DNA of 64,000 nucleotides from NCBI GenBank assembly GCA_963576725.1, contig OY755240.1, positions 60,078,633 through 60,142,632 of the forward strand, given 5' to 3'. Source of the stretch: Azorinus chamasolen (Eukaryota > Mollusca > Bivalvia > Cardiida > Solecurtidae). This document shows positions 13,589 through 61,690 of the stretch, piece after piece. A model generated the notes under the pieces. That model did no database searches. It worked only from the letters and a program-made list of their open reading frames with translations, and was not told the origin of the DNA. A program made the position numbers and the translations under genes. Position 1 is the first letter of the stretch, and every line of letters begins with the position of its first letter.

Positions 13589-13775
13589 TCGAAAGCAGGG
13601 GAGTATGTCGTAGGGTGATTGTGTATGAAATAATTAATAAATTTGATGATATGTTGTTTATTGAATGACATTATTTCGCTCGATGTTACAAAAGTCGAGG
13701 ACGACCTTTTTTCGAAAGCAGGGGAGTATGTCGTAGGGTGATTGTGTATGAAACAATAAATAAATTTGATGAAAA
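13589..13775. repeat. Direct duplication of a ~124-bp unit
   Basis: The stretch starting 'ttcgaaagcaggggagtatg' and reaching 'aataaatttgatga' occurs at about 13589-13652 and again at 13713-13773, almost identical, separated by 60 bases. The near-identity implies a recent local duplication. Confidence 0.8.
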
Positions 13776-18420: not shown

Positions 18421-18567
18421 TGGGACTCTCTGTGTCTTGTCACAGGAACCAAGGACCACAATGGAAATTAGGAAAATACATGGATTTTATATGTTGTATT
18501 TTATGTTTTGCCATGTTATGTACAATTTCTACTGAAATAAATATATCTATCTAAAGTCATATCTAAA

Positions 18568-18900
18568 GCCTTAGTACTATATGAAGACGCCTTTTCAAAT
18601 CCGGAAACAGATGGAGGGGGTCGGTAACCCTTTATTACTTTTCTACAGTTACTCTGTTTGTTGGGTACACTAGCGATAGGTGGATCCTGTTTGTTTCACT
18701 TAAATATGTTTTAGTTTAAGATGCAGTTTACCAATGTATTTGTCATAGCGATTGTTGTTGAATAGTCGGAGAGGGGATACGTTTGTTTACAGGGATTGTC
18801 TTTTAGGGTGGGGATGGAATAGGTGTGAGGTTTGACACCCCTAAATATAAATAGGTATAAACCCCCATTGGCATTTACTTCCCCTGCTTTTTTAAACATA
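18568..18900 (+). mobile_element. Naiad subfamily-2 3' UTR fragment
   Basis: Carries 'acccttt attacttttctac', 'acactagcgataggtggatc' and 'ggagaggggatacgtttgtt', shared with tails at 23.4, 49.4 and 52 kb. It includes a decayed SECIS-like hairpin at 18581-18624 (ATGA core, helix GACGCC against GGGGTC, loop with AAA; the 3' GA core is mutated to GT). The coding part is absent. Confidence 0.65.
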
Positions 18901-20560: not shown

Positions 20561-20567
20561 ATGAAAG

Positions 20568-22981: not shown

Positions 22982-23063
22982 TATGTACTCAATGACTTTG
23001 CTGAAGACAGAGCAACTGCAGGGAAGCCGTTAGGGACACGACAGAGAAAAGGCAATACATAAG

Positions 23064-23108
23064 TCTGGTAAGCTCATCCCATTTCTGGTTTCAAGAGTAT
23101 ACCATCAT
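23064..23108 (-). promoter_or_regulatory. SECIS-like stem-loop (Naiad 3' UTR)
   Basis: On the minus strand: ATGA, helix arm TGGTATACTC, loop with GAAA then CCA-GAAA-TGG mini-stem, helix arm GAGCTTACCA, then GA. TGGTA/TACCA and CTC/GAG pair perfectly. This is the layout of a form II SECIS element. The coding part of this copy is not present. Confidence 0.55.
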
Positions 23109-23355
23109 AGAGTACACCCCAATTAACGGACGCCCTAACCTCAAACGTACCTCAAAGTCACCCTAGCTTAGTGTAAGTAAAGGTATCCCCGCCGGACTTT
23201 CCCACAACATAAAAGACGGTAAATACATGAAAATATATAAAACATAGCATAACAGCTGTGCAAATCCGTCACATATGTACTCAATGACTTTGCTGAAGTC
23301 AGAGCAACTTCAGGGAAGCCGTTAAGGGCACGACAGGGAAAAAGTAATACATCAG

Positions 23356-23399
23356 TCTGGTAAGCTCATCCCATTTCTGATTTAAGAGTATGCCATCAT
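23356..23399 (-). promoter_or_regulatory. SECIS-like stem-loop (Naiad 3' UTR)
   Basis: Same structure as at 23064-23108, with TGGCA opposite TACCA (one C-A mismatch) and TTAAA in the apical loop. It keeps the ATGA and GA cores. Confidence 0.5.
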
Positions 23400-23400
23400 A

Positions 23401-23950
23401 GAGTCAACCCTTTTACAGTCAACAATCACGCTGCCCGCTTTTCATGACACCGATAGGAAAGCATTACTACTCTATGAAGACACCCCCTGGAATCTGGAAA
23501 CGTGCCCTTTATTACATTTCTACATGTAATCTGGTTGCAGCTCAATTATTGAGTACACTGGCGATATGTGGATCCAGGTTATTTCACTTAAATATGTTTC
23601 CGTTTTACATGCCATTTACCACTCTGTTTGCCATTGCGGTTGTTGTATTTTAGTAGAAGAGGAGATACGTTTACTTACACTGTTTGTCGTTTAGGGTGGA
23701 GATGAAATAGTGTGAGATTGAGCCCCCCAACCCAACCAGTTTAAACCCCAAGTGACTATTGTCTCTGACCGTTCCAAGGCGGTACTTCCATCTTCCCATA
23801 TTGGTTGTTTGTTTTGTCTTTGTATTACTCTGTGTTTTGATAGGTACATGTATGTACATTTTCTGTTTTTATTTGTTGTGGTGCTGTTTGGGTGGTTGTT
23901 TGTTTTGTATGTGGTATTTCCTGCATGACTCATATTGTACTTTTATTTAA
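23401..23950 (+). mobile_element. Naiad subfamily-2 C-terminus and 3' UTR
   Basis: Opens with the last codons of the RT ORF ('NPFTVNNHAA', decayed) and 'actctatgaagac', a SECIS-like start whose downstream arm is deleted. It continues through 'tggatccaggttatttcact', 'gactattgtctctgaccgtt' and ends 'tttcctgcatgactcatat' near 23935. No functional protein. Confidence 0.7.
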
Positions 23951-25183: not shown

Positions 25184-25430
25184 TTAACTCTTTCCCTGTT
25201 CTATGTTTATTACTATATTCAGTACCTACTGAATATTTATAGATAACATATTCATGACACGTAGAAGGTGGACCATTGTAACAATTGTAGCAAGTATAGA
25301 AACATATCTATCAGACTCCATTAGCAAACATAGCAGACCCTGATCAGACGGCTCCTATAGGAGTCGTCTGATCTGTGTCGACTCTGTTTGCAAATGCACG
25401 AAAAGGCATTTATAAGAGGGAAAGGGTTAA
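25184..25430. mobile_element. TTAA-flanked MITE, best-preserved copy
   Basis: TTAA at 25184-25187 and 25427-25430, termini CTCTTTCCCTG and GAGGGAAAGGG. It contains 'ttcagtacctactgaatatt' (itself palindromic) near 25218 and a long hairpin at about 25325-25392: 'gcaaacatagcagaccctg', 'atcagacggctcctatagg', then the reverse complement. There is no open frame of note. Confidence 0.75.
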
Positions 25431-26760: not shown

Positions 26761-27999
26761 ATAAATGCAGCCACTAAATACATGTACATCACATATCACT
26801 TACTAAGCTTGTCTATACGAGATACCGGTTATCTTAACTTCAACTAGCTCGATATCTGGTGGCGGGAAAGGGCTCAGTCAGATTGTTTACGACAGGAAAA
26901 TCCTCTGCTTTTCATGAAATTTTCACTTGCCAATATTTATGTGGTCTGATGCAATGTATTAAATGCAGTTGTCCGCTTTTCATGCGCGGATTTAGTTCGT
27001 TTGGTACAATGTAAAACTCCTTTCAAGAGCGCATTTAGTCTATCGAATATAATTTGTTTTCCGTTGTTTGTTTGGTACTAAAGAAATCTTATTGTCACAT
27101 TGAGTAATGTAAATGAGTTGTTTCAAAGAAAACTGCACATGTACACAGTACATGTAGACGTGCATCCGAGACACAGTAATTGAGCTGTTTCAATATTGTT
27201 TGGCAAGGCACTGGGTGGTTTTTAATCAAAGCAATAATAGGTAGCGCATTAACATTTGTCATGCTACAGGAGAATTTGCACTTACATGTGCAAATTGTTT
27301 TGGCCCATGTGAAACACCGAAAACAAAACGGCTTCTTAGGACCCAAACTACTTGACACACACTAGACTGTACATTTGTAGAGAAAAATATTGAAGTCAAA
27401 CCTCCTAGAAAGACAGCAGGTGAGAATATGAGCAGGTGAACTTTTACTCTACTAGATCAAATCTTTCAAGTGTTGTGTAATATTAGGTACAACCGAACCG
27501 GATAATGTCTGAGATATATTTTTACAGAACATAAATACTCTAACTGAAATTAAAGTAAGTGTAAAAAGAACTGGAGCAGATCAATGTTTTCGCCGTTAGA
27601 GAATCGCCACAAATGATAGTTAAATAGAATGTCTTCAGTGCCACAAATAAAGGTTAAAATAGTTTAACTTGCGCATCTTATCTGAACCTCTATAACGGAT
27701 CAGTGTCGCCGTTAGAGAATTGTCACAAATGGTAGTTAAGCAGAATGTCTTTACATGGACTCCTTAATGTGTAAGTGATGTTCTCTAGAATAAATGGTGC
27801 TTGTTACGTTCAGGTATTCGTTTGGAGATTGTTAATTTGAACTCATATTTAAACATGCCCCAGAGATACAAACTAAACCGCTTTCGTCGATACTTAAAAT
27901 GTTTGTTGTACACCAAAATACATGTAGTGTCTCCCTATTTCAAATAATAACGAAACTAAAACATCAGCAGATTAAAACCAAAACAGAAGTCAGACAGGA
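26761..27999. other. No gene recognised
   Basis: About 1.2 kb. Two open frames near 27095-27365 on opposite strands overlap one another and resemble nothing I know. A phrase containing 'ccgttagagaatcgccacaaatg' recurs at about 27591 and 27710, suggesting an old duplication of about 120 bp. Confidence 0.4.
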
Positions 28000-28017
28000 A
28001 ATTGATTAGGATCAGGA

Positions 28018-28514
28018 AAGTTCAAAGTTTTAAAATTGTTAATTATCCTTTTCTAGATGGGGATGTTCCACGTTCTACATCTTATGGGGTTTATATTTCT
28101 CAACTTATTAGGTTTGCCCGAGCCTGTTCTTTGCTTGAAGATTTTAACAGACGTAATTTAGTTATAACTGATAAACTTCTTAAGCAAGGTTACAGATATC
28201 ACAAATTTCGGAAAACCTTTTCTAAATTTTATTATCGAAATTTACCTCTCATTAGTAAATATAATTGCAATCTACGGACTTTACTGCGACAAGGCATTTC
28301 TCAACCAGAATTTTATGGGGATGTTATCTACAAACTTAGGAAAATTCGGGGTCATATCCATTTTCATGATTTGTTTATAAAACGCATTAAAACATTTAAA
28401 AAGAAAGGTTATGATCCCATTATATTGCAACACACTGCATGTTTGGTTATCGACCCTTTTACAGTCGGTAGCTACGCTTCCCTCTTTGCTTGCGCGATGA
28501 CAGACCGAGGGTAG
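28018..28514 (+). pseudogene. Naiad RT ORF, C-terminal third, open to the natural stop
   Basis: C-terminal part of a Penelope-like RT of the Naiad type, 5'-truncated. The frame runs without a stop from about 28018: 'FKIVNYPFLDGDVPRSTSYG', 'VYISQLIRFARACSLLEDFN', 'RRNLVITDKLLKQGYRYHKF', 'KFYYRNLPLISKYNCNLRTL', 'QPEFYGDVIYKLRKIRGHIH', then 'LQHTACLVIDPFTVGSYASL' and 'FACAMTDRG', TAG at 28512-28514. The upstream RT palm with the catalytic YLDD box is missing, so this copy cannot act. It is the cleanest view here of the family's C-terminus and of the join to the 3' UTR, with the SECIS-like hairpin starting 6 bases after the stop. Confidence 0.82.
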
Positions 28515-28520
28515 TACTCT

Positions 28521-28565
28521 ATGATGGTATATTCTTAAACTTGGATACAGGAGGAGCTTACCAGA
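28521..28565 (+). promoter_or_regulatory. SECIS-like stem-loop directly after the Naiad stop codon
   Basis: ATGA core (28521-28524); arm TGGTATATTC; TTAAA in the apical part; arm GAGCTTACCA; GA core at 28564-28565. TGGTA/TACCA pairs fully; TTC/GAG pairs through a T-G wobble where other copies have CTC/GAG, a base change that keeps pairing. It would direct UGA recoding to selenocysteine if the family does encode selenoproteins. Confidence 0.6.
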
Positions 28566-29105
28566 CTCATGTATTACTTTTTCCCTGTCGTGCCCTTAAC
28601 GGCTTACCTGCAGGTGCTCTGACTTCAGCAAAGTCATTGAGTACATATTTGACGGATTGTCACAGTTATTATGCTATGTTTTACATGTTGTCCTGTGTTC
28701 ACCGTCGTCTATGTTGTGGGTAAGTCCAGCGGGGATACCTTTATTTACAATATTTATAAAGCTAGGGTGACTTTGAGAGAAGTGTGAGGTTAGGACGTCC
28801 GTAAACCGGTTTAAACCGCCAGTGGTGTTTTTGCTGCTGACCGTGCCAAGGCGGTACTCTCTTTGTCACCCTTCCTTTTGTTTGCCTTGCGTCTTTGTGC
28901 TTGTGGTTTGTTCATGTTGTGGAACGTTTGTCCCTGGTTCTTGTGTGTCTTTTGGTGTTTTCTGTGTTCATTTCGTGTGGGTGTGTGTGTGCGTTTGGGT
29001 GTGTGGTGTGTGTGTGTGTGTGTGTCATGCTGTCTATCGGTGTTTTGGTGGTGGTTGCGTCTTGCATGTGGCTTTGCCTGCTTGACTTTACTACTTTTCC
29101 ATTCA
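28566..29105 (+). mobile_element. Naiad subfamily-1 3' UTR with internal GT repeat
   Basis: Runs from the hairpin through 'cttcagcaaagtcattgagt', 'ggttaggacgtccgtaaacc' and 'accgtgccaaggcggtactc', then a GT-rich segment (28975-29027), 'ctatcggtgttttggtggtg', and the terminus 'tgcttgactttactactttt' at about 29077-29105. This gives the complete 3' end against which the fragments elsewhere can be set. Long open frames over the GT stretch are artefacts of low complexity. Confidence 0.75.
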
Positions 29106-29325: not shown

Positions 29326-29329
29326 GTTG

Positions 29330-30094
29330 TTATTACAATTCAAGTTGATCACTAATTGTAATAATGTTTTTGCATCATAACCAGTTTTGTAATAAATATT
29401 TCTAAGTCGTTGTACTATCATCTAGAATAACTAATGTATTACTTCATACATGTACATATGCGCGCACACGCATGCGCCCCCTACAAACTACAGGATTACA
29501 CATACTAGCGCGTGCGCACATTCACACACACATAGACACACAAATAAAGACGCAAAATTATTCTTATTACACTCCAGGTTATTATTACAACTCAGGTTGA
29601 CAACCAATTGTAATAATGTTTCCGCATCATAACTAGTTTTGTAATAAATATTTCTAAGTCGTTGTACTATCATCTAGAAAAACTCAAGTATTATTTCATA
29701 CATGTACACATGTACGCACACGCATGCGCCCCTCCTCTACAAACTACACGCATAAACATACTAGCACGTGCGCACATAAAAACACACAAACACACAACTA
29801 CAGACACAAAATTATCTTATTACACTTCAGGTTGTTATTACAATTTAGGTTGACCACCAATTGTAATAATGTTTCCGCATCATTACCAGTTTTGTAATAA
29901 ATATTTCTAAGTCGTTGTACTATAATCTAGAATAACTCATGCATTTCTTCATACATGTACACATGCGCTCACACGCATGCGCCCCTCCCCTACAAACTAC
30001 ACTATTATACATACTAGCACGTGCGCACATTCATATACACACAGACACACAAATACAGACACAAAATTATTTAATTTACACTTCAGGTTGTTAT
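29330..30094. repeat. ~250-bp satellite, first block (about 3 monomers)
   Basis: Tandem monomers of about 250 bp: 'ttattacacttcaggttgtt', 'ccaattgtaataatgtttcc', 'gcatcataaccagttttgta', 'aagtcgttgtactatcatct', 'acttcatacatgtacacatg', 'cgcacacgcatgcgcccctc', 'actagcacgtgcgcacattc', then CA-rich sequence. Every monomer carries the palindrome GCACGTGC. The array continues at 34195 after an insertion. Confidence 0.88.
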
Positions 30095-30305
30095 TATACC
30101 CCCTTTTTGAAAAAATGGGGGTATATTGCTTTGCACATGTCGGTCGGTCGGTCGGTCTGTCTGTCGGTCGGTCGGTCGGTAGATCGATGGTTTCCGAACG
30201 ATAACTAATAAACGACTTAGCCTAGAATCTTCAAACTTGCTTTGGTGGTTGGTCATGACAAGTAGATGACCCCTATTGTTTTTGAGGTCACTAGGTCAAA
30301 GGTCA

Positions 30306-30320
30306 AGGTCACCATGACCT
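30306..30320. promoter_or_regulatory. Perfect estrogen-response-element palindrome within the array
   Basis: AGGTCA-CCA-TGACCT, the consensus IR3 site for steroid-type nuclear receptors. Identical 15-mers occur at 30451-30465, 30596-30610, 33439-33453, 33584-33598 and 34013-34027; 30742-30756 has spacer GTA. Immediately upstream most monomers read AGGTCAAAGGTCA, a perfect DR1, and TCAAGGTCA, an ERR/NR5A-type extended half-site. The match is exact; function is unknown. Confidence 0.7.
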
Positions 30321-30928
30321 AAAATGGTGAAATAGTTTCCGATCAATAACTGCTCAAGGGTTTGGCTTGGGATCTTCAAACTTGCTGTGGTGGTTGGTCA
30401 TGACCACTAGATGACCCCTTTTGATTTTGAGGTCACTAGGTCAAGGGTCAAGGTCACCATGACCTTAAATGGTTAAATGGTTTCCGATCAATAACTGCTC
30501 AAGGGTTTAGCTTAGAATCTTCAAACTTGCTGTGGTAGTTGGTCATGACAACTGGATGACCCCTATTGATTTTGAGGTCACAAGGTCAAAGGTCAAGGTC
30601 ACCATGACCTTAACTGGTAAAATGGTTTCTGATCAATTAACTGCTCAGGGGTTTGGCTTAGGATCTTCAAATTTGCTTAGGTGGTTGGTCATGACAACTA
30701 GATGAGTCCTATTGGTTTTTAGGTCACTAGGTCAAAGGTCAAGGTCAGTATGACCTTAAAGGGTGAAATGGTTTGCGATCAATAACTGCTCAAGGTTTTG
30801 GCCTAGGATCTTCAAATTTGCAGTGCAAACGGGGGTAATCTACTCTCAAAATGACAGTGTTACCTCCCTTGTTAGCGTCTCGTTGTAAGTGTAGTAATCT
30901 TTTTAACACTGTTTTCCTTTTCTTTTAA

Positions 30929-31348
30929 ATGGTGTTTAGCTTACATTTACTTTCTTTAAACACACAGGTTTTACGAGACAAAGACAAACGTTTACGATTA
31001 AAAGAATATGTCACCCTACAAAGGGTCGACATCCTGTTTTTACAAGAGACACACTTCACTTTCGAAATATCAAACACTGTAAACACAAAATTTTCAGATT
31101 GGGAAATAATCCATTCATATGGATCTAGTTCAATCAAAGGTTGTTCGATACTCATTAATAAAAATATAGAATATGAAATAATAGATTTCTGTATAGACAT
31201 CTTGGGTAGATATGTTTTTGCAAACATTTTACATGACGATGCAACTTATACATTAGTCAATGTGTACGCTAATAACGATAAGTCTAACAGAAATATATTT
31301 TTTCAAACTGTTAGCACATTAATTGAAAAAATGCTCTCGTTACTTTAA
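30929..31348 (+). pseudogene. LINE B ORF2, N-terminal endonuclease, then deletion
   Basis: ORF2 begins at the ATG at 30929 with 'MVFSLHLLSLNTQVLRDKDK', 'VDILFLQETHFTFEIS' (the QETH box with catalytic Glu) and 'GCSILINKNIEYEIID', continuing to 'YTLVNVYANNDKSNRN'. At about 31335 the sequence jumps straight to RT motif C in another frame, so the rest of the endonuclease, the linker and the RT fingers and palm start are missing. The start codon is backed by the adjoining 5' UTR and the fact that the endonuclease fold begins within a few residues. Confidence 0.8.
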
Positions 31349-33051
31349 ATAAAACATATAACCTAAAAATTACGCAATTAGCTGATGATACAACGCTATT
31401 TTTAAGAACTGAAAGCGACATTATACTCGCGTTAGAAATAGTTAAAACATTCGGAACATTTTCGGGGTTAAAACTTAATAGAAACAAAACAGAAGGGATG
31501 TGGATAGGAAGCAAAATGTACTGTACGGACTCGGTAGGAGATATAGCGTGGCCACAACGCCCGATTAAAGCCTTAGGCATCTACTTCCACAACAATAAAA
31601 AACTTTGTTCAGAACTTAACTGGGAAAATAAAATCAGCAAATGTCACAAAATAATACAAAATTGGAAAAAACGCAAACTAACGTTTTACGGCAAAATTCA
31701 AATTATTAAAACATTACTTGTTCCTATGTTTACATACTTGTTTCACACACTTACTGTACACAAAAACACGGTAAGTAGATTAAATAACATGTTTTACAAT
31801 TTCCTGTGGAATGGAAAAAGAGAAAAGATAAACCGAAAAACTCTGATAGGAAACAAATTAAAAGGGGGACTCGAAATGTTAGATTTAGAATCACATATCA
31901 AATCATTAAAAATAAAATGGGTAAAGGCTTTAACGGATGATACAGATGCAAACTGGAAGGCAATTCCTAGATACCTATTCCAGGCCTATGGAACCAATTT
32001 TTTAATATTCTACATGAACATTGACAGTTTAAAAAGTTTAGACATAACACACCTTTCAGAATTTTACAAAGATGTATTAGAAATTTGGATAAGTACCAAA
32101 TGCAATAAGCAACATGAAGTCTCAACATTTGCAAACGTTAGAAATCAAATCATATGGGGTAACAAATTTATTAAATCAAAAAATAAATGTTTACTTTTTA
32201 ACAATTGGATAAATGCAGGTATAATATTTGTAAACGATATAATCAACGAGACAACGACACAGGAATGATAGACCATACACACATATTAACGAAGTTAGAA
32301 GATAAAAGAAATTGGATAATAGAATATAAAACATTAATACAAGCAATACCTAAAAAATGGGAATCTTTGCTAAAAACGGAAAACTCATACAAAACGAGAG
32401 TGAAAACGTCACTGACCCTAGCTGTAGACAACCGATCCTTATATGAATGTAACAATAAAAATATATACCAATGTGTACTAGTTAGGCAATTTCAGAAACC
32501 TATCATGCACCGCTATTGGTGCAAAAAATTCGGTTGCATTCTGCCATGGACGGATATATATTTTTGTTAACAAAATATATAACAATAGGCTTAAACAATA
32601 TAAATATAGAACAATTAATAAAATATTCCCAACAAGAGAAATAAGATATAAGTGGAAAATGGAAAACTCACCGAACTGTTTGAAATGCAATGAAAATGAA
32701 GACTATGAGCACACATTTATAATATGCTCTGAAATACAATCATTTTGGGAAAACATTATCTTGCTATTTAAACACTGTGGTATTAATGCCGATTTAAAGA
32801 ACCTGAAAACAATACTTTTCGGATACAAGATTACAAATGCCGATTATTTTCATGTTAATGTACTACTCACTCTAGTAGGCTTTAGCATATATAAATCTTA
32901 TTTTCTTAGCAACAACTGGACTCTTGAATGTGACATTTTTAAAGTTTTTCTCTATGAATTTAAAACATTATTTGAATTATTGAACTATAAAAACACAAAT
33001 TATACGTTCGTTGCAAAATTTAACAAAATGTTGCAAAGAATAATATACTGA
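31349..33051 (+). pseudogene. LINE B ORF2, RT C-terminal part and zinc-knuckle domain, frameshifted
   Basis: Resumes with 'YNLKITQLADDTTLFLRTES' (LADD catalytic box near 31380-31400) and 'FGTFSGLKLNRNKTEGMWIG'. Then come 'ALGIYFHNNKKLCSELNWEN', 'FYGKIQIIKTLLVPMFTYLF', 'NNMFYNFLWNGKREKINRKT' and 'IWGNKFIKSKNKCLLFNNWI'. A frameshift near 32240-32260 moves it to the next frame, a stop falls at about 32568, and a third frame ends with 'CLKCNENEDYEHTFIICSEI' (zinc-knuckle, near 32677) and the stop at 33051. It is closely similar to LINE A throughout. Confidence 0.82.
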
Positions 33052-34194
33052 TGTAACACTTTCTATTTAAGAATACGTAAATCCAGTTTGTCACAAACAA
33101 CATAGTTTGACGATTATTGTGTTGTTCTTGTTGTTATCTTATTGTTATTTTGATACATGTATATAACACATTATATTGAATAAACGAAGCGTAGGCTTCA
33201 CCAAAAAAAAAAAGGATCTTCAAATTTGCTGTGGTGGTTGGTAATGACCACTAGATGACTCCTATTGTTTTTAGGTCACTAGGTCAAAGGTCAAGGTCAC
33301 CATGCTCTTAACTGGTCAAATGGTTTCCGATCAATAACTGCTCAAGGGTTTGGCTTAGAATCTTCAAACTTGCTGCGGTAGTTGGTCATGACAACTGGAT
33401 GACCCCTATTGTATTTGAGGTCACTAGGTCAAAGGTCAAGGTCACCATGACCTTAACTTGTAAAATGGTTTCTGATCAATAACTGCTCAAAGGTTTGGCT
33501 TAGGATCTTCAAGTTTGCTTAGGTATTTGGTCATGACAACTAGATGAGTCCTGTTGTTTTTTAGGTCACTAGGTCAAAGGTCAAGGTCACCATGACCTTA
33601 ACTGGTGAAATGGTTTGCGATCAATAACTGCTCAAGGGTTTGACTTAGGATCTTCAAACTTGCTGTGGTGGTTGGTCATTACCAATAGATAACCCCTATT
33701 ATTTTAGGTCACTAGGTCAATTGTCAAGTTCGCCATGACCTTAACTGGTGAAATGGTTTGCGATCAATAACTGCTCGAGGGTTTGGCTTAGGATCTTCAA
33801 ACTTGCTGTGGTGGTTGGTCATGACAACTAGATGACCCTATTGATTTTGAGGTCACTAGGTCAAAGGTCAAGGTCATCATGACCATAACTGATGAAATGG
33901 TTTCCAATTAATAACTGCTCAATGGTTTGGTTCGGGATCTTCAAACTTGCTGTGGTAGTTGGTCGTGACTAGATGACCCCTATAGTTGTTCAGGTCACTA
34001 GGTCAAAGGTCAAGGTCACCATGACCTTAACTTGTGAAATGTTTTCAGATCAATAAATGATCAGTGGTTTGGCTTAGGATCTTCAAAGTTGCTGTGGTGA
34101 TTAGTCATGACCGCTAGATGACCACTATAGTTGAGGTCACTAGATCAAAGGTCAGGGGGTCTGGGGGGTATACATGTTTTACAAACATCTCTTG

Positions 34195-36085
34195 TTACAA
34201 TTCAGGTTGACCACCAATTGTAATAATGTTTTCGCATCATAACCAGTTTTGTAATAGATATTTCTAAGTCGTTGTACTATTATCTAGAATAACTCATGTA
34301 TTACTTCATACATGTACACATGTGCGCACACGCATGCATCCATCCCCTACAATCTACATTATTACACATACTAGCACGTGCGCACGTTCATACACACAAA
34401 TACAGACGCTAAAATATTCTTATTACACTTCAGGTTGTTATTACAATTCCGGTTGACCACCAATTTGTAATAATGTTTTCGCATCATAACCAGTTTTGTA
34501 ATAAATAGTCGTTGTACCATCATCTAGAAAAACTCGTGTATTACTTCATACATGTACACATGCACGCACACGCATACGCCCCTCCCCTACAAACTAAACG
34601 CAATAACATACTAGCACGTGCGAACATAAATACATACACAGACACACACACAAATACAGACAAAAATTTAATTTATTACACTCCAGGTTGTTATTACAAT
34701 TCCGGTTGACCACCAATTTGTAATAATGATTTTGCATCATAACCAGTTTTGTAATAAATATTTCTATGTCGTTGTACTATCATCTAGAATAACTCATGTA
34801 TTACTTCATACATGTACACATGCACGCACACGCATGCGCCCCTCCCCTACAAACTACACGCAAACACTTACTAGCACGTGCGAACATAATACATACACAG
34901 ACACACACAAATACAGACACAAATTTAATTTATTACACTCCAGATTGTTATTACAATTCAGGTTGACCACCAATTGTAATAATGTTTTCGCATCACAACC
35001 AGTTTTGTAATACATATTTCTAAGTCTTGTACTATCATCTAAAATAACTCATGTATTACTTCATACATGTACACATGCGCGCACACGCACACGCACGCGC
35101 TCCTCCCTACAAACTACACGCATACACATACTAGCACGTGCGCACATTCATACACATTCATACACACAGACACACAAATAAAGACAAAAAAATATTTTAT
35201 TACACTTCAGGTTGTTATTATAATTCAGGTTGACCACCAATTGTAATAATGTTTCCGCACCATAACCAGTTTTGTAATAAATATTTCTAAGTCGTTGTAC
35301 TATCATCTAGAATAATTCATGTATTACTTCATATACACAGACGCTCACACGCATGCGCTCCTCCCCTACAAACTCCACGCATACACGTACTAGCACGTGC
35401 GCACATTCATATACACACAGACACACACAAATACAGACACAAAATTATTTTATTACACTTCAGGTTGTTATTACCAATTGTAATGTTTTCGCATCATAAC
35501 AAGTTTTGTAATAGATATTTCTAAGTCGTTGTACTATCATCTAGAATAACTCATGTATTACTTCATACATGTACACATGCGCGCACACGCATGCGCCCCT
35601 CTCCTACAAGCTACACACATACACATACAAGCACGCGCACATATTCATACACACACAGACACACAAATACAGACACAATATTTTTATTACACTAAAGGTT
35701 GTGATTACAATTCAGGTTGACCAGCAACTGTAATAATATTTTCGCATCATAACCGGTTTTGTAATAAATATTTCTAAGTCGTTGTACTATCATCTAGTAA
35801 ACTCATTATTACTTCATACATGTACGCATGCGCGGACACGCATGCGCCCCTCCCCTACAAACTACACGCATACACATACTAGCACGTGCGAACATAAATA
35901 CATACACACACAGACACACAAATACAGACACAAATTTATTTTATTACACTCCAGGTTGTTATTACAATTCAGGTTGACCACCAATTGTAATAATGTTTTC
36001 GCATCATAACCAGTTTTGTAATAAATATTTCTAAGTCGTTGTACTATCATCTAGAATAACTCACGTATTACTTCATACATGTGAT
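34195..36085. repeat. ~250-bp satellite, second block (about 7-8 monomers)
   Basis: Continuation of the array at 29330-30094. Monomers repeat at 245-256 bp, judged by the recurring 'cagttttgtaata' near 34248, 34493, 34745, 35000, 35265, 35505, 35755 and 36012. Variation lies mainly in the CA-rich part. It is interrupted at 36086 by an RTE-type LINE. Confidence 0.88.
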
Positions 36086-37612: not shown

Positions 37613-38580
37613 TATATGCATGCCCCCCCCCCCCTGCAAACTACACACATACACATACTAGCACGTGCGCACAGAAATACAGACACAAAATTATTTTATT
37701 ACACTTCAGGTTGTTATTACAATTCAGATTGACCACCAATTGTAATAATGTTTTCGCATCATAACCAGTTTTGTAATACATATTTCTAAGTCATTGTACT
37801 ATCATCTAAAATAACTCATGTATTACTTCATACATGTACACATGCGCGCACACGCACGCGCCCCTCCCTACAAACTAAACGCATACACATACTAGCACGT
37901 GCGCACATTCATACACACAGACTCACAAATACAGACACACAATTATTTTATTACACTTCAGGTTGTTATTACAATTCAGGTTGACCACCAATTGTAATAA
38001 TGTTTTCGCATCATAACCAGTTTTGTAAAACATATTTCTAAGTCGTTGTACTATCATCTATAATAACTCGTATAATACTTCATACATGTACATATGCGCG
38101 CACACGCATGCGCCCATCCCCTACAAACTACATTATTACACATACTAGCACGTGCGCACATTCACACACACACATACACACAAATACAGACACACATTTA
38201 TTTTATTACACTTCAGGTTGTTATTACAATTCCGGTTGACCACCAATTGTAATAATGTTTTCGCATCATAACCAGTTTTGTAAAACATATTTCTTAGTCG
38301 TTGTACTATCATCAAGAATAACTCATGTATTACTTCATACATGTACACATGCGCGCATACGCATGCGCCCCTCTCCTACAAACTACACGCATACATATAC
38401 TAACACGTGCGAACATACATACACACAAATACAGACAAAAAATTATTTTATTACACGTCAGGTTGTCATTACAATTCAGGTTGACCACCAATTGTAAAAA
38501 TGTTTTCGCACCATAACCAGTTTTGTAATTTGTAATAAATGTTATTACAATTCCGGTTGTTATTACAATTCAGGTTGCAA
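37613..38580. repeat. ~250-bp satellite, third block (about 4 monomers)
   Basis: Resumes after the RTE-type LINE with a C-run ('gccccccccccctgcaaac') and monomers like those at 34195-36085, the last one partly scrambled near 38520-38575. Confidence 0.85.
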
Positions 38581-43303: not shown

Positions 43304-43567
43304 CCTAACATCGATATTTTCTCAATATTTTCAATCAGAAAACGTAAAAGCAGATCACGTGGTAATCGTATAAATGGTAATATTAAGCGCAGATTACGTC
43401 TTAATATGTATGTTCATGATTTACATACTATTCTTAAAGAAACTTGCAAACATGCTATGCTTTCTTGTTTATAATCTTTGCCATTTTCTTGTACTCGGTC
43501 CATTAACGAGGAGGCTGATAAAAGTTTTATGCGTAGAGACCCACTGATCAAAACTGCCTCAGTTATA

Positions 43568-44090
43568 CCAGAATTGTCATATATTTTATCATAGTAACGT
43601 TTAACATGTTCCTTGATAGTAGTAAGACACAATGTTAAAAGTTTAGATAGTTTAGTAGTAGTACAACAGTTAGAGTTAGCAATAAAACGCGCCTTCTTCG
43701 GATTTTTTATGTAGCTTGGGAATCCAGTACATAGTAGAAAGTTTATGTTGTTTTACGTTAGGATTGGACTTAAAATATTGCACATGTTTACATGTTCCGA
43801 GACTATATCTTTTTTTCAGGGGTTTGCACTGTAATATATGTTTGTGAACCCGTTAATTCCTTCTTCAAAACACCAACATAATACAATCTTCACATAATTA
43901 TTACATTATGTGATGCCTTGTCAGCAGGAGCAAGAACATAGTTAGAATGAAAGTTCGAAATGTTTTTCTTCAGATATCGAAATGTATCTCTGGGTCGAGG
44001 TGGTAATAGATGGTAATTAGATTTGTAAAAGCAATACGTGTATCAATAATGTCAAAAACATGTTTTTCCAATCCGAAAGGGCATTAACAT
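43568..44090 (-). pseudogene. Inverted middle segment of the same Naiad copy (pre-RT region)
   Basis: Minus strand, from 44090 leftwards: 'VNALSDWKN', 'DIIDTRIAF', 'NYVLAPADKASHNVIIM', TGA at 43890-43892, 'RLYYVGVLKK', 'TLYYVLDSQAT' in a shifted frame (for MYWIPKLH), 'CLTTIKEHVKRYYDKIYDNS' at 43570-43632. These blocks belong between the GIY-YIG part (plus, ending 43567) and the RT (plus, from 44097). The order is thus right but the middle 520 bp is flipped. The TGA is at the position that is also TGA in the copy at 61367. Confidence 0.72.
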
Positions 44091-44096
44091 ATAAAA

Positions 44097-45175
44097 AAAA
44101 TTAAATGATATTTTAACTAAACTTGAAAATGAACAGTACAGCATTTCTTCACTGAGCTCTTATGATTTCTCTACACTCTATATTACTCTACCTCACCATC
44201 TTATAAAGGATAAACTGATTAAATTGATAGAAAAAACCTTTGCAGAGAAAATAAAATAAAATGTTCATTGCTTGTAATGTTCAACGCTCATTCTTTTCGA
44301 ATTCTGAAGTTGAAAATTATACAAGGTGGACTTGCATTGATGTTCGTAGATCTTTAACATTTCTTTTAGGTAACAGTTTTGTGCGCTATGGGGATACCAT
44401 ATATCGTCACGTTGTTGGTATACCTATGGGAACAAATTGTGCCCAACTTGTTGCAGATTTGTTTTTATATTGCTATGAGAGGGATTTTAAAACCTGATAT
44501 TGTTAGTGTTTTTAATAAAATATCTGTCTAGGTATTTAGACGATATTTTGAATTTGGATAATCCTTATTTTTAAAATATGGTTTCTTCTTTTTACCCAAA
44601 AGAACGTACTTTAAAATGCGAATCGATCCGACATTCAGGCTTCCTTTTTAGATTTGAATCTTTCAATCACTAATGATAAAGTTGCGTCTAAAATATACGA
44701 TAAAAGGGAAGATTTCGATTTCAAAATTGTTCATTATCCTTCTCTAGATGGAGATGTTCCCCGGACTACATCTTATGGGGTTTACATTTCTCAACTTATT
44801 CGCTTTGCCCGAAACTGTTCTTTGATAGAAGATTTTAATAGTCGTAATTTAGTTATAACTCATAAACTTCTTAAGCAAGGCTTCAGATATCATAAAATTC
44901 GGAAAGCTTTTTGAAAATTTTATTATCAAAATGTACCCCTCATTAGTAAATATAACTGCAATTTACGGACGTTACTGCAACAAGGTATTTCTCACCCAGA
45001 TTTCTATGGTGATATCAATTTTCACGATTTGTTTATTTAACGCATTAAAACTTTTTGGAAAAAGGTTATGACCCTATTATATTGCAACACTCTGCATGTT
45101 TGGTTATCGACCCCTTTACAGTCGGTTGCTACGCCTCCCTCCTGGCTTGCACGATGACAGACCGAGGGTAGTATG
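44097..45175 (+). pseudogene. Naiad RT, plus strand, to the natural C-terminus
   Basis: RT half of the copy begun at 42540: 'LNDILTKLENEQYSISSLSS' (44099-44160), 'YDFSTLYITLPHHLIKDKLI', 'CNVQRSFFSNSEVENYTRWT' (44274-44330), 'VRRSLTFLLGNSFVRYGDTI', 'YRHVVGIPMGTNCAQLVADL' (44400-44460), 'FLYCYERDF'. A deletion and frameshift follow; 'RYLDDILNLDNPYF' (44529-44571) keeps the YLDD catalytic box. Then 'NLSITNDKVASKIYDKREDF', 'HYPSLDGDVPRTTSYGVYIS', 'FRYHKIRKAF', and the end 'LQHSACLVIDPFTVGCYASL' with 'LACTMTDRG' and TAG at about 45168-45170. The SECIS-like hairpin is cut after 'atgat' by the next copy. Confidence 0.8.
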
Positions 45176-45177
45176 AT

Positions 45178-46430
45178 ATTTCTGGTATTAATGTTTTTTG
45201 GCCATACAATTTCAAATGATATTTTAACTCAACTTGAAAATGAACAGTACACTTATATTTGTGCACTATGAGGATACAATATATCGTCAAGTTGTTGGTA
45301 CATCTATTGGTACAAATTATGCCCTTTTGTTGCAGATTTGTTTTTGTATTGCTACGAGAGGGATTTTATTCTAAGCTTAAAACCTAATACACAAGCTAAT
45401 ATTGTAAACGTATTTAATAAATCATCTAGTTGTTTAGGCGATGCATGTATTTTGAATTTGGATAATCCTTATTTTGAAACTATACTTCAATTTACACAAA
45501 GGAACTCTTTTTTAAAAAGAATCGATTCGACATATAGCTTCCTTTAGATTTGAATATTTCCATCACACATTATAAATGGAAAAGTAGTAAAGTCAAGCAG
45601 GCAAGACCACATACAAGACGCAACCACTACCAAAACGGAGAGAGTTTCGTTCAAAATATACGATAAAAGGGAACATTTTAATTTCACAATTGTTAATAAT
45701 CCTTTTCTAGATGGAGATATTCTCGTTCTTCATCTTATGAGGAATACATTTCTCAACATAGAGCCAGTTCTTTGCAAGAATATGTTAATGGTCGGAATTT
45801 ATTTATAATTTCTTAAGGTAACGGACATCATAAAATTCGGAAAGCTAAATTTCAGTTTCGGAATTTACTTGTCATTAGTAAATATAATTGCAATCTACGT
45901 ACGTTACTGTAACAAGGTATTTTTCACCCGAAATTATATAGTGATGTTACCTATAAACTTAGGAAAATTTTGGGTCATATTCTATGATAGTATAGTTACT
46001 CTTAAACCAGAAACCGGATGAGCTTTCCAGACTCATATATTATCTTTTTTCTGGCGTGCCTTTACCGGCTTCCCTACAGCTGCTCTGACTTCAGCAAAGT
46101 CATCAAGTTTGATGGACTTAACAGTTATCATACTATGTTATACATATTGGCCTGGTCACTATTTGTAAAACTAGGGTAACTTTGAGACAAGTGTGAGGTT
46201 AGGACGTCTGTCATTGAGTTAATATTTGACGAACTTTCACAGAAGTTCTCCCACTTTCAAGATATTGTTATGATATGTTTTACATTTTGTCCTGTGTTAA
46301 CCGTCTTCTATGTTGTTTGGAGGTCCTGCGATGATACCTTTATTTAAAGTGTGTGTTAAACTAGGGTGTCCGTAAACCGGTTTAAATCCCAATGGTGATT
46401 TTGCCACTTGCCGTTTCTACTTTTTCATTT
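45178..46430 (+). pseudogene. Second, tandem Naiad copy, decayed RT and 3' UTR
   Basis: Begins in the pre-RT region ('SGINVFW'), jumps to 'VKLLVHLLVQI', a shifted form of VVGTSIGTN, then 'LLQICFCIATRGILF'-type frames and 'LYCYERDFILSLKPNTQANI' (45338-45410), 'YFETILQFT'. A 65-bp inverted piece of Naiad 3' end is embedded at about 45573-45640 ('aatggaaaagtagtaaagtc'). RT C-term relics continue ('KIYDKREHFNFTIVNNPFLD', 45655-45715) to a weak SECIS-like hairpin at 45984-46031 and a subfamily-1 3' UTR to about 46430. Inactive. Confidence 0.65.
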
Positions 46431-49321: not shown

Positions 49322-49945
49322 ATGATCTTATAGTACTACAACATTCTGCATGTTTGGTTGTCAACCCTTTTACAGTTGGCAATCACGCTGGCCTCTTTGC
49401 ATGTACGCCGACAAAAACGTTTAGTACTCTATGAAGGCGACCTCTTAAATCCAGAAACGGACGGAGGACGTCAGATATCTGTACTATTTCGTTTTTGTCG
49501 TACCCTTTATTACTTTTCTACAGTTACTCTGTTTGCAGGTCAATCATTGAGTACACTAGCAATAGGTGGATACAGTTTGTTCACTTAAATGGTTTCGTTA
49601 TACATGCACTTTACTACTCTATTTGCCATCGCGGTTGTTGTAGTTCAGTCGGAGAGGGGATACGTTTATTTATGCTGTTGGTTTGTTAGGGTGGGGATGG
49701 AATAAGTGAGGTTGGGCGCCCATAAACCGGTTTAACATCCCCCCCAGGACTTTTGTCACTGACCGTTCCGAGGCGGTACTTCCATCTTCCCCATATTGTA
49801 TGTTTGTTTTGTCTTTTTGCGTCTCTTCGTGTTTTTGTAGTGATGTACATTTGCTGTTTCCTTTTGTTGCTGCTCAGGCGACTGTTTGTTCTGTATGTGG
49901 TGTTTCCTGCATGACTCAGTTTTGTACTTTTAAAGACCGCAGTTT
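49322..49945 (+). mobile_element. Naiad subfamily-2: last codons and complete 3' UTR
   Basis: 'LQHSACLVVNPFTVGNHAGL' and 'FACTP' (49337-49410), then a SECIS-like hairpin and the UTR: 'gtaccctttattacttttct', 'gagtacactagcaataggtg', 'ggtttgttagggtggggatg', 'gacttttgtcactgaccgtt' and the end 'tgcatgactcagttttgtac'. It shows the full subfamily-2 3' end, which shares only the hairpin and a few short blocks with subfamily 1. Confidence 0.75.
49431..49475 (+). promoter_or_regulatory. SECIS-like stem-loop, subfamily 2
   Basis: ATGA core; arm GGCGACCTC pairs with GAGGACGTC over nine positions with a single A-A mismatch; TTAAA in the loop, TCC/GGA mini-stem around AGAAAC; GA core. The stem sequence differs from subfamily 1 (TGGTATACTC/GAGCTTACCA) at most positions while pairing is kept in both. 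Confidence 0.65.
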
Positions 49946-50589: not shown

Positions 50590-51260
50590 AAAGAACAATA
50601 CCACAATCCTACAATATTGCAACACACTGCATGTGTGGTGGTCGATCCCTCTACAATCGATCACAACGTTTCCTCTTTGAACGTACGGCGACAGGACATA
50701 GTACTCTGTGATGACGACCTCCCAAATCTGGGGACGGAAGGAAGCTGTCGAATGCTTGAACCTTGTTCTTTCTGTCATTCCATTAATGGCTTCTCTACAG
50801 TTGCTCTGACTTCAGAACGTCATGGAGAAAAAATTGTGACTGGCTTCATATTTACACCTTTTGGGTTTTTGAAGGCATATACCGGGATAATATGGTATAA
50901 TTCCGGTTCTTGCATTGAACGAAACCGTGTCTTTCTTGTTTACATGAATGTACATTATTGTGTTAGCCGTCACTTTTGTTGTGGAGCAGCCGGGCGGGAC
51001 GGGTCTATTTATTTACACAATTGCACTGTTGGTGTAATAGAGTGTAGATGGGATAAGGGTGAGGTTGGAAGCGTCCCCTAACCATTGTTTACTCATGTTG
51101 TGTAGTTGTCCGGAAGAGGAATTTTATTTTTACATTTTGACTTGGGTGAAGGTGGGATAAGTGCGAGGTTGGGTACCCATAATCAGGTTTAAGCCCCCAG
51201 TAGCCAATTATGGCTACTGGCCGTTCCAATGCGGTACTCCTGCTTTCACCCTATAGTCAA
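50590..51260 (+). mobile_element. Naiad subfamily-2 C-terminus and 3' UTR
   Basis: 'ILQHTACVVVDPSTIDHNVS' (50608-50675) is the ORF end. A SECIS-like hairpin at 50707-50751 has GTGA for ATGA, arms GACGACCTCC and GGAAGCTGTC with most positions paired, and GA after the second arm. UTR blocks follow, ending with repeated 'gataagtg(t/c)gaggttgg' phrases near 51052 and 51152. Confidence 0.6.
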
Positions 51261-51960: not shown

Positions 51961-52225
51961 GCATGTCGGGTTGCTAACCCTTTTACAGTTGGCAACCACG
52001 CTGTCCTCTTCCATGTACACCGACAGGAAAATCTTAGTAATCTATGAAGACACCCTCTTAAATCCATTAAGGAGGACGTCGGATCTTTGTACTATGTCTT
52101 TTTTTGTCGTACCCTTTATTACCTTTCTGAAGTTACTCTGCTTGCAGCTCAATCATTGAGTACATTAGCGATAGGTGTATTAATGTTGTTTCACTTTAAT
52201 ATGCTTTCGTTTTACATGCATTTTA
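51961..52225 (+). mobile_element. Naiad subfamily-2 C-terminus and partial 3' UTR
   Basis: 'LLTLLQLATTLSSSMYTDRK' is a shifted form of the LVNPFTVGNHAxLF end. A SECIS-like hairpin lies at 52044-52083 (ATGA; GACACCCTC against GAGGACGTC with two mismatches; TTAAA loop; GA). The UTR breaks off near 52225. Confidence 0.6.
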
Positions 52226-52374: not shown

Positions 52375-52850
52375 GGTTTTATTGAGTCTGTTCATCAGTA
52401 GCAATTAAAAGTGCAACACTACTCACGCTCCATAGCAAGGGCTTAAGCAGTATTCATTTTCCAAAACCAACAACAACTTTTTGCTTGCGCAATGACAGGC
52501 CGAGGGTACTACTCTATGATGGTATACTCTTAAACTCAGATACGGGATGAGCTTACCAGACTCATGTATTACCTTTTCCCTGTGGTGCCCTTAACGGCTT
52601 CCCTGCAGATGCTCTGACTTCAGCAAAGTCATTGAGTACATATTTGGCGGATTTTCACAGTTATTATGCTATGTTGTACATATTGCCATGTGTTTACCGT
52701 CTTCTATGTCGTGGGTAAGATTGGCGGGGTACCTATAATTACACTATTTGTAAAGCTAGGGTGACTTTATCTCTAATACTCGTGTGCTGTTAATGTTGTC
52801 TGTGTTCATCTCGTGTATGTGCGTGTGTTTGATGTGTGCGTGTGTGTGCC
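52375..52850 (+). mobile_element. 270-bp repeat fragment joined to Naiad subfamily-1 3' UTR
   Basis: 'ttttattgagtctgttcatc' to 'cttaagcagtattcattttc' (52375-52463) is the 5'-type repeat; at about 52480 the sequence switches to 'gcttgcgcaatgacaggccgagggtac', the last Naiad codons, then a well-kept SECIS-like hairpin (52516-52560) and UTR to about 52850. Confidence 0.65.
52516..52560 (+). promoter_or_regulatory. SECIS-like stem-loop, subfamily 1
   Basis: ATGA, arm TGGTATACTC, TTAAA, mini-stem CTC/GGG around AGATAC, arm GAGCTTACCA, GA. All core positions are kept. Confidence 0.6.
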
Positions 52851-59275: not shown

Positions 59276-59939
59276 AAAAAGTAGTAAAGTCGAGCAGGAA
59301 AAGCCACACACAAAACGCCACCATCACCAAAACACCTACAGAAAGCATAGCAATTTATACTCATACACACATACAGCAGAAGGTCGCATAGGCATACAAC
59401 ACGCAATCACCACCAACACATCAATAGACAGCATGTCACACACACACACAACCAAACACACGCAAACACACGAGAAGAACACAGAAAACACCAACAAATA
59501 CACGAGCACCAGAGACAAACATGAACAAAACACAAGCACAAAGACACAAGACAAACAAAAGTAAGAGTGACAAAGAGAGAACCGCCTTGGCACGGTCAGT
59601 AGCAAAATCACCACTGCGGGTTTAAACCGGTTTACGGACGTCCTAACCTCACACTTATATCAAAGTCACCCTAGCTAAACAAACATTGTAAATAAAGGTA
59701 TCATCGCCGGACGTCCCCACAACATAGAAGACAGTAATCACAGTACAAAAATGTAAAACATAGCATAACAACAGTGAAAGTCCGTCAAATATGTACTCAA
59801 TGACTTTGCTGAAGACAGAGCAAATGCAGGGAAGCCGTTAAGGGCACGACAGAGAAAAGGTAATACATGAATCTGGTAAGCTCATCCCATTTCTGGGTTT
59901 AAGAGTATACCATCATAGAGTACTACCCTCGGCCTGTCA
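59276..59939 (-). mobile_element. 3' UTR of the minus-strand Naiad, with a nested tail
   Basis: From the right: SECIS-like hairpin (59872-59916), 'gactttgctgaagacagagc' complement near 59800, 'ggtttacggacgtcctaacc' (59628), 'aaccgccttggcacggtcag' (59580) and CA-rich repeat. A second terminus ('gtagtaaagtcgagcaggaa' at 59280 and a CA block near 59355) overlaps at the left end. Confidence 0.7.
59872..59916 (-). promoter_or_regulatory. SECIS-like stem-loop of the long Naiad copy
   Basis: Minus strand: ATGA, arm TGGTATACTC, TTAAA, mini-stem CCCA-GAAA-TGGG (four perfect pairs), arm GAGCTTACCA, GA. It lies in the same element as the TGA codons at 61367 and 60969, just downstream of the ORF. Confidence 0.65.
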
Positions 59940-61690
59940 TCGTGCAAGCAAAGAGGAAAGCGAATCAACCGACTGTAAAGGGGTCGATAACCAAACATGC
60001 AGTGTGTTGCAATATAATAGGGTCATAACCTTTCTTCCTAAAAGTTTTAATGCGTTTAATAAACAAATCGTGAAAATGGATATGACCATGAATTTTCCTC
60101 AGTTTGTAGATGACATCACCATAGAAATCTGGATGAGAAATACCTTTTTGCAGTAACGTCCGTAAATTGCAGTTATATTTACAAATGAGGGTTGAATTTC
60201 GATAATAGAATTTTGAAAAAGCTTTCCGAATTTTATATCTGTAGCCTTGCTTAAAAAGTTTATGATTAAATTACGACTATTAAAATCTACTAGCAAAGAA
60301 CAGGCTCGGGCAAAGCGAATAAGCTGACAAATGTAAACCGGGGAACATCTCCATCTAGAAAAGTATAATAAACAATTTTGAAATCGAAATATTCCCTTTT
60401 ATCGTATATTTTAGACGAAACTTTATCATTAGTGATGGAAAGATTCAAATCTAAAAAGGAAGCCTGGATGTCAGATGGGTTCGCTTTGTTCAAAGTAAGT
60501 TCTTTTGGGTAAATAGAAGAAACCATATTTTCAAAATAAGGATTATCCAAATTTAAAATATCGTCTAAATACCTAGACGTTTTATTAAAAGCACTAACAA
60601 TGTCAGATTGTATATCAGGTTTTAAACTAAGCATGAAATCCTTCTCATAGCAATATAAAAACAAATCTGCAACAAGGGGGGCACAATTTGTTCACATAGG
60701 TATACAAACAACTTGACGATATATGGTACCCCCATAGCGCACAAATATGTTATCTAAAAGAAATGTTAAAGATCTACAAACATCAAGGCAAGTCCACATT
60801 GTGTAATTTTCAACTTCAGAATTCGAAAAGAATGAACGTTGAACATTACAATCAAGGGACATTTTATTTGCTCTGGCAAAGTTTTTTTTCTATCAATTTA
60901 ATCAGTTTATCCTTTATAAGATGGTGAGGTAGAGTAGTATAGAGTCTAGAGAAATCGTAAGAGCTCAATCAAGAAATGTTATACTGTTCATTTTCAAGTT
61001 TAGTTAAAATATCATTTGAATTTTTTAAGGACCAAAAAACATTAATACCAGACTTGTCATATATTTTATCACAGAAACGTTTAACATGTTCTTTGATAGT
61101 AGTAAGATACGACGTTAAAAGTTTAGATAGTTTAGTAGCAGTACAATAACTAGAGTTAGCAATAAAACACGCCTCATACGGATTTTATGTAGCTTAGGAA
61201 TCCAGTACATAGTAGAAAGTTTATGTTGTTTTACGTTAGGATTAGACTTAAAAGTATTGCACATTTTTACATGTTCCGTGACTATATCTTTTTCAGGGGT
61301 TTGCACTGTAATATATGTTTGTGAACCCGTTAATTCCTTCTTCAAAACATCAACATAATACAATCGTCACATAATTATTATTACATTAGTTGATGCCTTG
61401 TCAGCAGGAGCACAAACGTAACTAGAATGAAAATTCGAAATGTTTTTCTTCAGATATCGAAATGTAATTCTAAGTCGAGGTGGTAATAGATGGTAATTAG
61501 ATTTACAAAAAGCAATACGTGTTTCAATAATGTCAAAAACATGTGTTTTTCCAATCCGAAAGAGCATTTACATCAGCATGTTCTCGTCGACACCATTTGC
61601 TGCAGAATTCTTGAATAGCTTTAGCAATATGAGTACGACAAGTGACAAAAGGTAATCTATATGTGGGTCCTTTAGTAAGGAGGATCCTGA
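59940..61690 (-). pseudogene. Naiad ORF, long minus-strand copy: pre-RT and RT
   Basis: Longest continuous Naiad coding stretch here. From 61690: 'TKGPTYRLPFVTCRTHIAKA', 'IQEFCSKWCRREHADVNALS', 'VFDIIETRIAFCKSNYHLLP' (61480-61560), 'SSYVCAPADKASTNVIIIM', TGA (61367-61369), 'RLYYVDVLKKELTGSQTYIT', 'CNTFKSNPNVKQHKLSTMYW', 'IPKLHK' (61190). After a frameshift: 'ANSSYCTATKLSKLLTSYLT', 'TIKEHVKRFCDKIYDKSGIN', 'EQYNIS', TGA (60969-60971), 'LSSYDFS'. Then 'CNVQRSFFSNSEVENYT', the 'NCAPLVADLFLYCYEKDFML' motif and 'SRYLDDILNLDNPYFENMVS' with YLDD intact (60540-60600), 'SSKIYDKREYFDFKIVYYTF', and the usual C-terminus to 59940. The GIY-YIG part is missing; a few shifts make it inactive. Confidence 0.82.
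61367..61369 (-). other. In-frame TGA shared by two Naiad copies (candidate selenocysteine)
   Basis: Context PADKASTNVIIIM-TGA-RLYYVDV. The copy at 43890-43892 has NVIIM-TGA-RLYYVGV. The two copies differ around it, including an extra ATA codon here, yet keep the TGA; in other Naiads I recall Cys at this point (NNVxFVC). Confidence 0.55.

Follow-up and report, generated by a model that had tools for sequence, protein, structure and literature searches.

Naiads are Penelope-like elements in which a GIY-YIG domain lies N-terminal to the reverse transcriptase (RT), a CxC linker is present and the RT is related to telomerase. Clam and spider Naiads reportedly encode selenoproteins (Craig et al. 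2021), and they are said to carry GIY-YIG before the RT, the CxC linker and several in-frame UGAs at cysteine sites. In our literature search no Naiad selenoprotein paper stood among the matches listed, and the combination of Penelope-like elements with selenocysteine (Sec) gave none. Eukaryotic SECIS elements of type II are described in PMC11227280 as having a mini-stem, unpaired adenines and an upper stem that is 7-15 bp long and contains no more than two mismatches. Distances are also on record: a minimum of 51-111 nt between UGA and SECIS is cited in PMC3316567, and for thioredoxin reductases PMC3737529 gives stop-to-SECIS distances of about 225 nt (human) and 124-138 nt (Euplotes). In this report we describe the hairpins of a 64-kb window (the whole stretch of DNA analysed), and we conclude with very little doubt that they are type II SECIS elements of two Naiad-type Penelope-like families whose in-frame UGAs are predicted to be read as Sec.

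The element fits the Naiad definition given above in domain order and linker, and weakly in its RT. Its GIY-YIG domain occupies residues 142-190 of 1063, N-terminal to the RT, with a Pfam match (E 0.0035, 18.0 bits) under the cut-off of 22.6; the CxC linker reads UDC in families 1 and 2 and CDC in the relative P0246; and of 19 Foldseek hits to the RT model (mean pLDDT 67), the eight best are telomerase RTs, all weak (best E 4.4e-3). Pfam RVT_1 found no match in the Naiad RT, and a sequence search of solved structures returned nothing relevant (best E 0.18).

The first-pass annotation had described, in nine intervals of the window, a hairpin with an RTGA core, an A-rich loop, often a mini-stem and a returning arm followed by GA, in two subfamilies with different stems; read and folded, all nine intervals carry this layout. 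Naming each copy by the first position of its core, we find ATGA with GA in eight of the nine, and GTGA with, in register, AA in 50707. An AAA or GAAA bulge is present in every one of them (shifted by an insertion in 45984), and two stem sets, TGGTA/TACCA with CTC/GAG and GGCG/CGTC with CCTC/GAGG, occupy one register. The ten-position upper stem has at most two mismatches in six copies (59872, 28521, 52516, 23064, 49431 and 50707), three in 23356 and 52044 and five in 45984; at least three of the four in-register mini-stem pairs form in six of the nine, and the mini-stem is lost in 52044. When aligned with their flanks, the copies share an outer helix, an internal loop, the ATGA/GA core, the upper stem, the A-rich bulge, the mini-stem and the returning arm. 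The lower helix, of up to 17 pairs, was absent from the earlier description, as was a tenth copy (18558-18642 on the plus strand, E 5.9e-5), which was found with a covariance model built from the nine; the next match of this model, 25314-25395 (21.5 bits), is a palindrome. The ten hairpins are built like a eukaryotic SECIS of type II, with the AUGA/GA core, the adenines, the mini-stem and the lower helix (Table 1). That they follow the Naiad stop codon can be seen directly in two of the nine copies (28521 and 59872, each with TAG, 6 nt and ATGA), the other copies being truncated or frameshifted before the stop.

Table 1. Naiad-related features of the 64-kb window, in coordinates of the window
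Feature	Position	Strand	Remarks
Family 1 SECIS, both helices, core 59872-59916	59848..59944	-	SECIS_1 27.7 bits; MFE z -5.6
TAG stop of Naiad frame, inside SECIS lower helix, 6 nt before ATGA	59923..59925	-	
In-frame TGA at RT motif-1 Cys site, same Naiad copy as 59872 SECIS	61367..61369	-	
Naiad RT fragment, 5'-truncated, frameshifted	59926..61573	-	extent approximate
Family 1 SECIS, core 28521-28565	28493..28589	+	SECIS_1 22.1 bits; fold z -2.4
TAG stop, 6 nt before ATGA of 28521 SECIS	28512..28514	+	
Naiad RT fragment, C-terminal	27999..28511	+	
Family 1 SECIS, core 52516-52560	52488..52584	+	SECIS_1 20.7 bits; fold z -2.8
Family 2 SECIS, core 49431-49475	49403..49499	+	SECIS_1 31.8 bits; fold z -3.7
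Family 2 SECIS without mini-stem, core 52044-52083	52016..52107	+	SECIS_1 22.9 bits; fold z -1.4
Decayed family 2 SECIS, core 50707-50751	50678..50774	+	quartet GTGA/AA; no SECIS fold
Decayed family 1 SECIS, core 45984-46031	45956..46055	+	five mismatches, insertion; no SECIS fold
SECIS without lower-helix 5' arm, core 23064-23108	23040..23136	-	no SECIS fold
SECIS without lower-helix 5' arm, core 23356-23399	23332..23427	-	no SECIS fold
Decayed tenth copy, family 2 type	18558..18642	+	26.8 bits with nine-copy model; no SECIS_1 match; no SECIS fold
In-frame TGA at RT motif-1 Cys site, second, rearranged copy	43890..43892	-	

No complete Naiad frame was found in the window, and the fragments read are truncated, frameshifted or rearranged; both fragments that span the RT motif-1 site have TGA there. 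At 43564-46148, a Naiad piece (43564-44090, minus strand) is inverted relative to the rest (44094-45173, plus strand), and another Naiad follows in tandem; since the first copy breaks off directly behind its TAG, its SECIS has been lost. In the AFUKFYY fragment TGA stands where relatives have S or C, and TGAs at Gly/Ser sites in single fragments (PMUTNC, NISULSS and VGUFA) were set aside as decay. The window holds other repeats and frames as well. A 160-bp tandem array (4.9 copies, 90% matches) lies at 7868-8656, and an open 771-codon LINE-type frame with RVT_1 and zf-RVT at 8975-11290. The palindrome is near-perfect over 25314-25401 and matches the nine-copy hairpin model on both strands. Arrays of 253-255-bp tandem units occur at 29326-30096, 34392-36082 and 37670-38528, their minus strand bearing sub-threshold matches to microRNA families, and a 145-bp tandem array forms two blocks (30187-30825 and 33213-34154) with LINE-like coding fragments, recognized by eye, between them at about 30929-33105.

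Support from the Rfam model SECIS_1 (RF00031) was obtained in part: five of the ten copies match, at 20.7-31.8 bits, all under the gathering cut-off of 35, at which nothing in the 64-kb window matches; an intact genomic element scores 23.2 bits against the same cut-off. Searched without cut-off at E<=10, the whole window gave three matches, all at hairpins already annotated, and smaller stretches yielded two further annotated copies. The minimum free energy (MFE) structure is the SECIS fold in five of the ten window copies (z scores in Table 1) and in the intact elements L034 and L039. For 23064, 23356, 45984, 50707 and 18558, which are truncated or decayed copies, there was neither a SECIS_1 match in the smaller stretches nor a SECIS fold at the MFE. 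AUGA, AAA, GA, two stems and the mini-stem are common to SECIS_1 and the Naiad hairpins, and in four window alignments and the intact element the register is identical, with AUGA, AAA and GA falling on those of the model; unlike the model, the Naiad lower-helix 5' arm includes the final codons of the frame together with its stop. A plain hairpin descriptor is less telling. With at least eight of ten pairs it gave seven matches in the window, five of them at annotated hairpins, against 1.73 in shuffles (sd 1.22, maximum 6; n=100); with at least seven pairs, 13 matches, seven at annotated hairpins, against 6.69 in shuffles; and with at least nine pairs, two matches (13625-13664 and 20530-20561), neither at an annotated hairpin nor with a SECIS fold, which were discarded. 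We reject this descriptor as proof, being near chance by itself. The upper hairpin taken singly is likewise close to chance expectation, and the strength of the evidence comes from its combination with the lower helix, the position, the occurrence in two families and the frame.

The first-pass annotation had also seen covariation in stems that differ in sequence and keep their pairing, and most measures, though not all, bear this out against shuffles and slid controls. In an alignment of nine window sequences and 30 pairs (18558 left out), 80% of cells are paired, and slid structures reach 40-46%; 18 cells are changed on both sides, against 8.3 in shuffles (none of 500 as high), and 12 pairs have double changes, against 6.8 (6/500). 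Further pair types do not exceed the shuffles (288/500), and RNAalifold, run unguided, proposed only 15 pairs, six with double changes, and no mini-stem. A second alignment of ten sequences, with two intact genomic elements added and 45984 and 18558 left out, has 84% of cells paired and 23 double-change cells, against 10.6 in shuffles (0/500); its ten double-change pairs are marginal against 7.3 (46/500), and its pair types are again no higher than in shuffles (425/500). Between the families the hairpin core is 67% kept, against 56-74% in the flanks, and is not clearly better conserved. A structure that keeps its position close to the 3' end in both families, in a window where short 3'-end fragments are common, might be a 3'-end recognition structure for the element's own RT, kept for retrotransposition and not for UGA decoding. 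We consider this very improbable, given the specific SECIS letters (AUGA, AAA, GA), the SECIS_1 matches and the TGAs at Cys sites of the frame, which RT binding leaves unexplained; the two roles could also coexist.

The frame itself was read in the host genome. In the 1.72-Gb assembly the P0002 query yielded 48,146 first-look candidates. Among the 90 that were scored, 83 have an open frame of exactly 489 codons directly following the RT site; with the P0011 query the same is true of 83 of 88 scored loci. The RT site codon is TGA in 26 of the 30 family 1 loci read, and in the other four (L010, L017, L021 and L029) a truncation or frameshift affects this place, L010 having its TGA in another frame. 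TGA likewise occupies the first Cys position of the CxC linker in 14 of the 30; of the two GIY-YIG sites, one has it in five loci and the other in four. All other loci have, by eye, unrelated sequence at the linker and GIY-YIG offsets, as expected of 5'-truncated copies. The hairpin is indeed present in TGA-carrying copies: 28 of the 30 family 1 loci, and all four family 2 loci read, have ATGA 6 nt downstream of the first stop, the two exceptions having an earlier TAA (L008) and a lost frame (L021). At full length, the family 1 frame comprises 1,063 codons with four TGA codons and a TAG stop, and five frames have the same four TGAs and, as far as read, no other stop: one each in L034 and L035, two in L038, and that of the second L033 unit, truncated where the locus ends. 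The first frame of L033 is rearranged with two TGAs; in L036 one more TGA lies upstream, and L037 contains an internal TAA. When a Cys-type query spanning the RT site was used, exactly one TGA and one TAG stood in all 72 scored matches, these being the best-scoring copies of 43,190 candidates, so that Cys-type families may still occur elsewhere in the genome. The two Naiads of L038 stand head to tail with a 4,198-bp period and near-identical units, and on contigs C4 and C7 loci of the P0002 query repeatedly lie about 4.2 kb apart.

Family 2 was read at the same sites. L039, which is P0011-like and matches window subfamily 2, has 1,063 codons from the first Met and three TGAs, all at family 1 sites, the fourth site being Cys; at 71% identity to family 1 (755/1061), it gives U/U at residues 148, 436 and 574 and, with U in family 1 and C in L039, U/C at residue 137. 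The RT site is TGA in all four family 2 loci read (L039-L042), with the hairpin 6 nt after TAG in each and one stem change in L041. For GIY-YIG residue 148, which we take to be a Cys site, no Cys relative was seen. Between one copy of each family, pS is 0.69, pN 0.18 and dN/dS about 0.11 overall, with synonymous sites near saturation; by segment, dN/dS is 0.21, 0.18 and 0.10, dS being saturated in the other two segments. These values point to purifying selection on both sides of the TGAs, and the in-frame UGAs appear to stand at Cys-homologous sites.

Such selection indicates that reading goes on, not which residue enters, and W occupies the RT site in some database relatives; the UGAs could accordingly be read through in another way, by ordinary read-through or a suppressor tRNA, with the hairpin incidental or merely stimulating. 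We regard this as highly improbable. Every stop inside the full-length frames read is a TGA, at a Cys-homologous site; the hairpins have SECIS anatomy; and the host appears to possess SepSecS, for which seven exon matches, two of them containing stops, follow one another in order along contig C11 and cover profile positions 1-388 except for 313-346. As for W, it may reflect a gene caller using code 4. A reading without read-through would make the copies pseudogenes, or each stretch between TGAs a small protein of its own, and the hairpin a relic. It draws on the window, where no complete frame was found among truncated, frameshifted and rearranged fragments, but is scarcely credible against five family 1 frames with exactly the same four TGAs, a dN/dS of about 0.11 at near-saturated synonymous sites and the U/C exchange.

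Database proteins show how the RT site fares in annotation. A joined window query found 871 relatives, and among the 120 of them listed the RT motif-1 site has a residue in 24 (15 C, 5 W and 4 other) and none in 96; the latter begin downstream of the site, 24 of them by no more than 2 positions, 17 by 3-15 and 55 by more. Of the 91 listed relatives without an SDSMM-type tail, four have C at the site and two W, and these six have, by eye, other, truncated ends. When the upstream part of the family was the query, the ten nearest database proteins all ended directly before the RT site. A broader search gave 33 of 120 proteins ending there by motif and two more by eye, together with 69 that read through, many of them with C or W, and the remaining proteins without the motif; a stop at this site is thus not universal among relatives. 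P0243 and P0002 each have a longest contig of 4,131 bases, and for both P0248 and P0014 it measures 2,807, which is what two halves of a single frame should show. W takes the place of C or a stop at the RT Cys site in P0024, P0027, P0031, P0084 and P0100, and in P0027 also at the CxC site; it may stand for TGA, if the gene caller used code 4. Neither viral contigs (9 stretches, none confirmed) nor prokaryote contigs (two loci from 33 stretches, which were set aside) yielded a SECIS-bearing relative.

Our data suggest a model whereby the mRNA of an intact element would be translated into a protein of about 1,063 residues with a GIY-YIG nuclease, the CxC linker and the reverse transcriptase, its three or four in-frame UGAs standing where relatives or the sister family have Cys; the host selenocysteine machinery would be recruited by the SECIS with which the frame ends, the UGAs would be read as Sec and translation would terminate at UAG. 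Judging from the sequence, insertion probably follows the standard eukaryotic route, and we presume a role of Sec for the element, the position of the start Met and a dependence of transposition on Sec. The first-pass annotation's view of the hairpins as the working SECIS elements of the family holds at the level of the family; most window copies are dead fragments, and 'working' therefore does not apply to each of them. With very many copies in the genome, the family appears to need Sec in the nuclease, the linker and the RT, a need that would tie the spread of the element to host selenium supply. A detailed SECIS, compensated changes between two families, a Cys/Sec exchange and a stop in the lower helix are documented here, and the open-frame families, the exchange and the stop overlap lend themselves to studying why Sec is used by a mobile element and how near a SECIS can sit to a terminating ribosome.

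The overlap of stop and SECIS is unusual. In both families the SECIS core begins 6 nt after TAG, and the stop thus lies inside the lower helix; since this spacing is kept despite near-saturated synonymous divergence, the terminating ribosome may unfold the SECIS. We speculate, with considerable reserve, that the stop codon was built into the SECIS on purpose, as a throttle by which the terminating ribosome unfolds it and briefly blocks further Sec insertion on the same mRNA. If true, such a throttle would be a built-in limit on the element's use of host selenium, and its last codons would be selected twice, for protein and for RNA.

Set beside known systems, the element resembles the Naiads reported by Craig et al. 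2021 in having GIY-YIG before the RT, the CxC linker and UGAs at Cys sites. In intact copies the RT-site UGA lies 1,479 nt upstream of the SECIS core, well beyond the minimum cited in PMC3316567, and the 6 nt from stop to core are short against the human and Euplotes thioredoxin reductases in PMC3737529. Fowlpox GPx4 (Mix et al. 2007, as relayed in PMC7409322 and PMC6769590) also has a SECIS overlapping the reading frame; there it is said to lie within the frame, whereas in Naiad the overlap is confined to the outer 5' arm. SECIS-like elements of Lokiarchaea, as described in PMC11227280, often have an AUGA that overlaps the UGA stop and so, like Naiad, place the SECIS at the stop; these are archaeal, with the stop forming part of AUGA, whereas the Naiad stop is a UAG 6 nt upstream.
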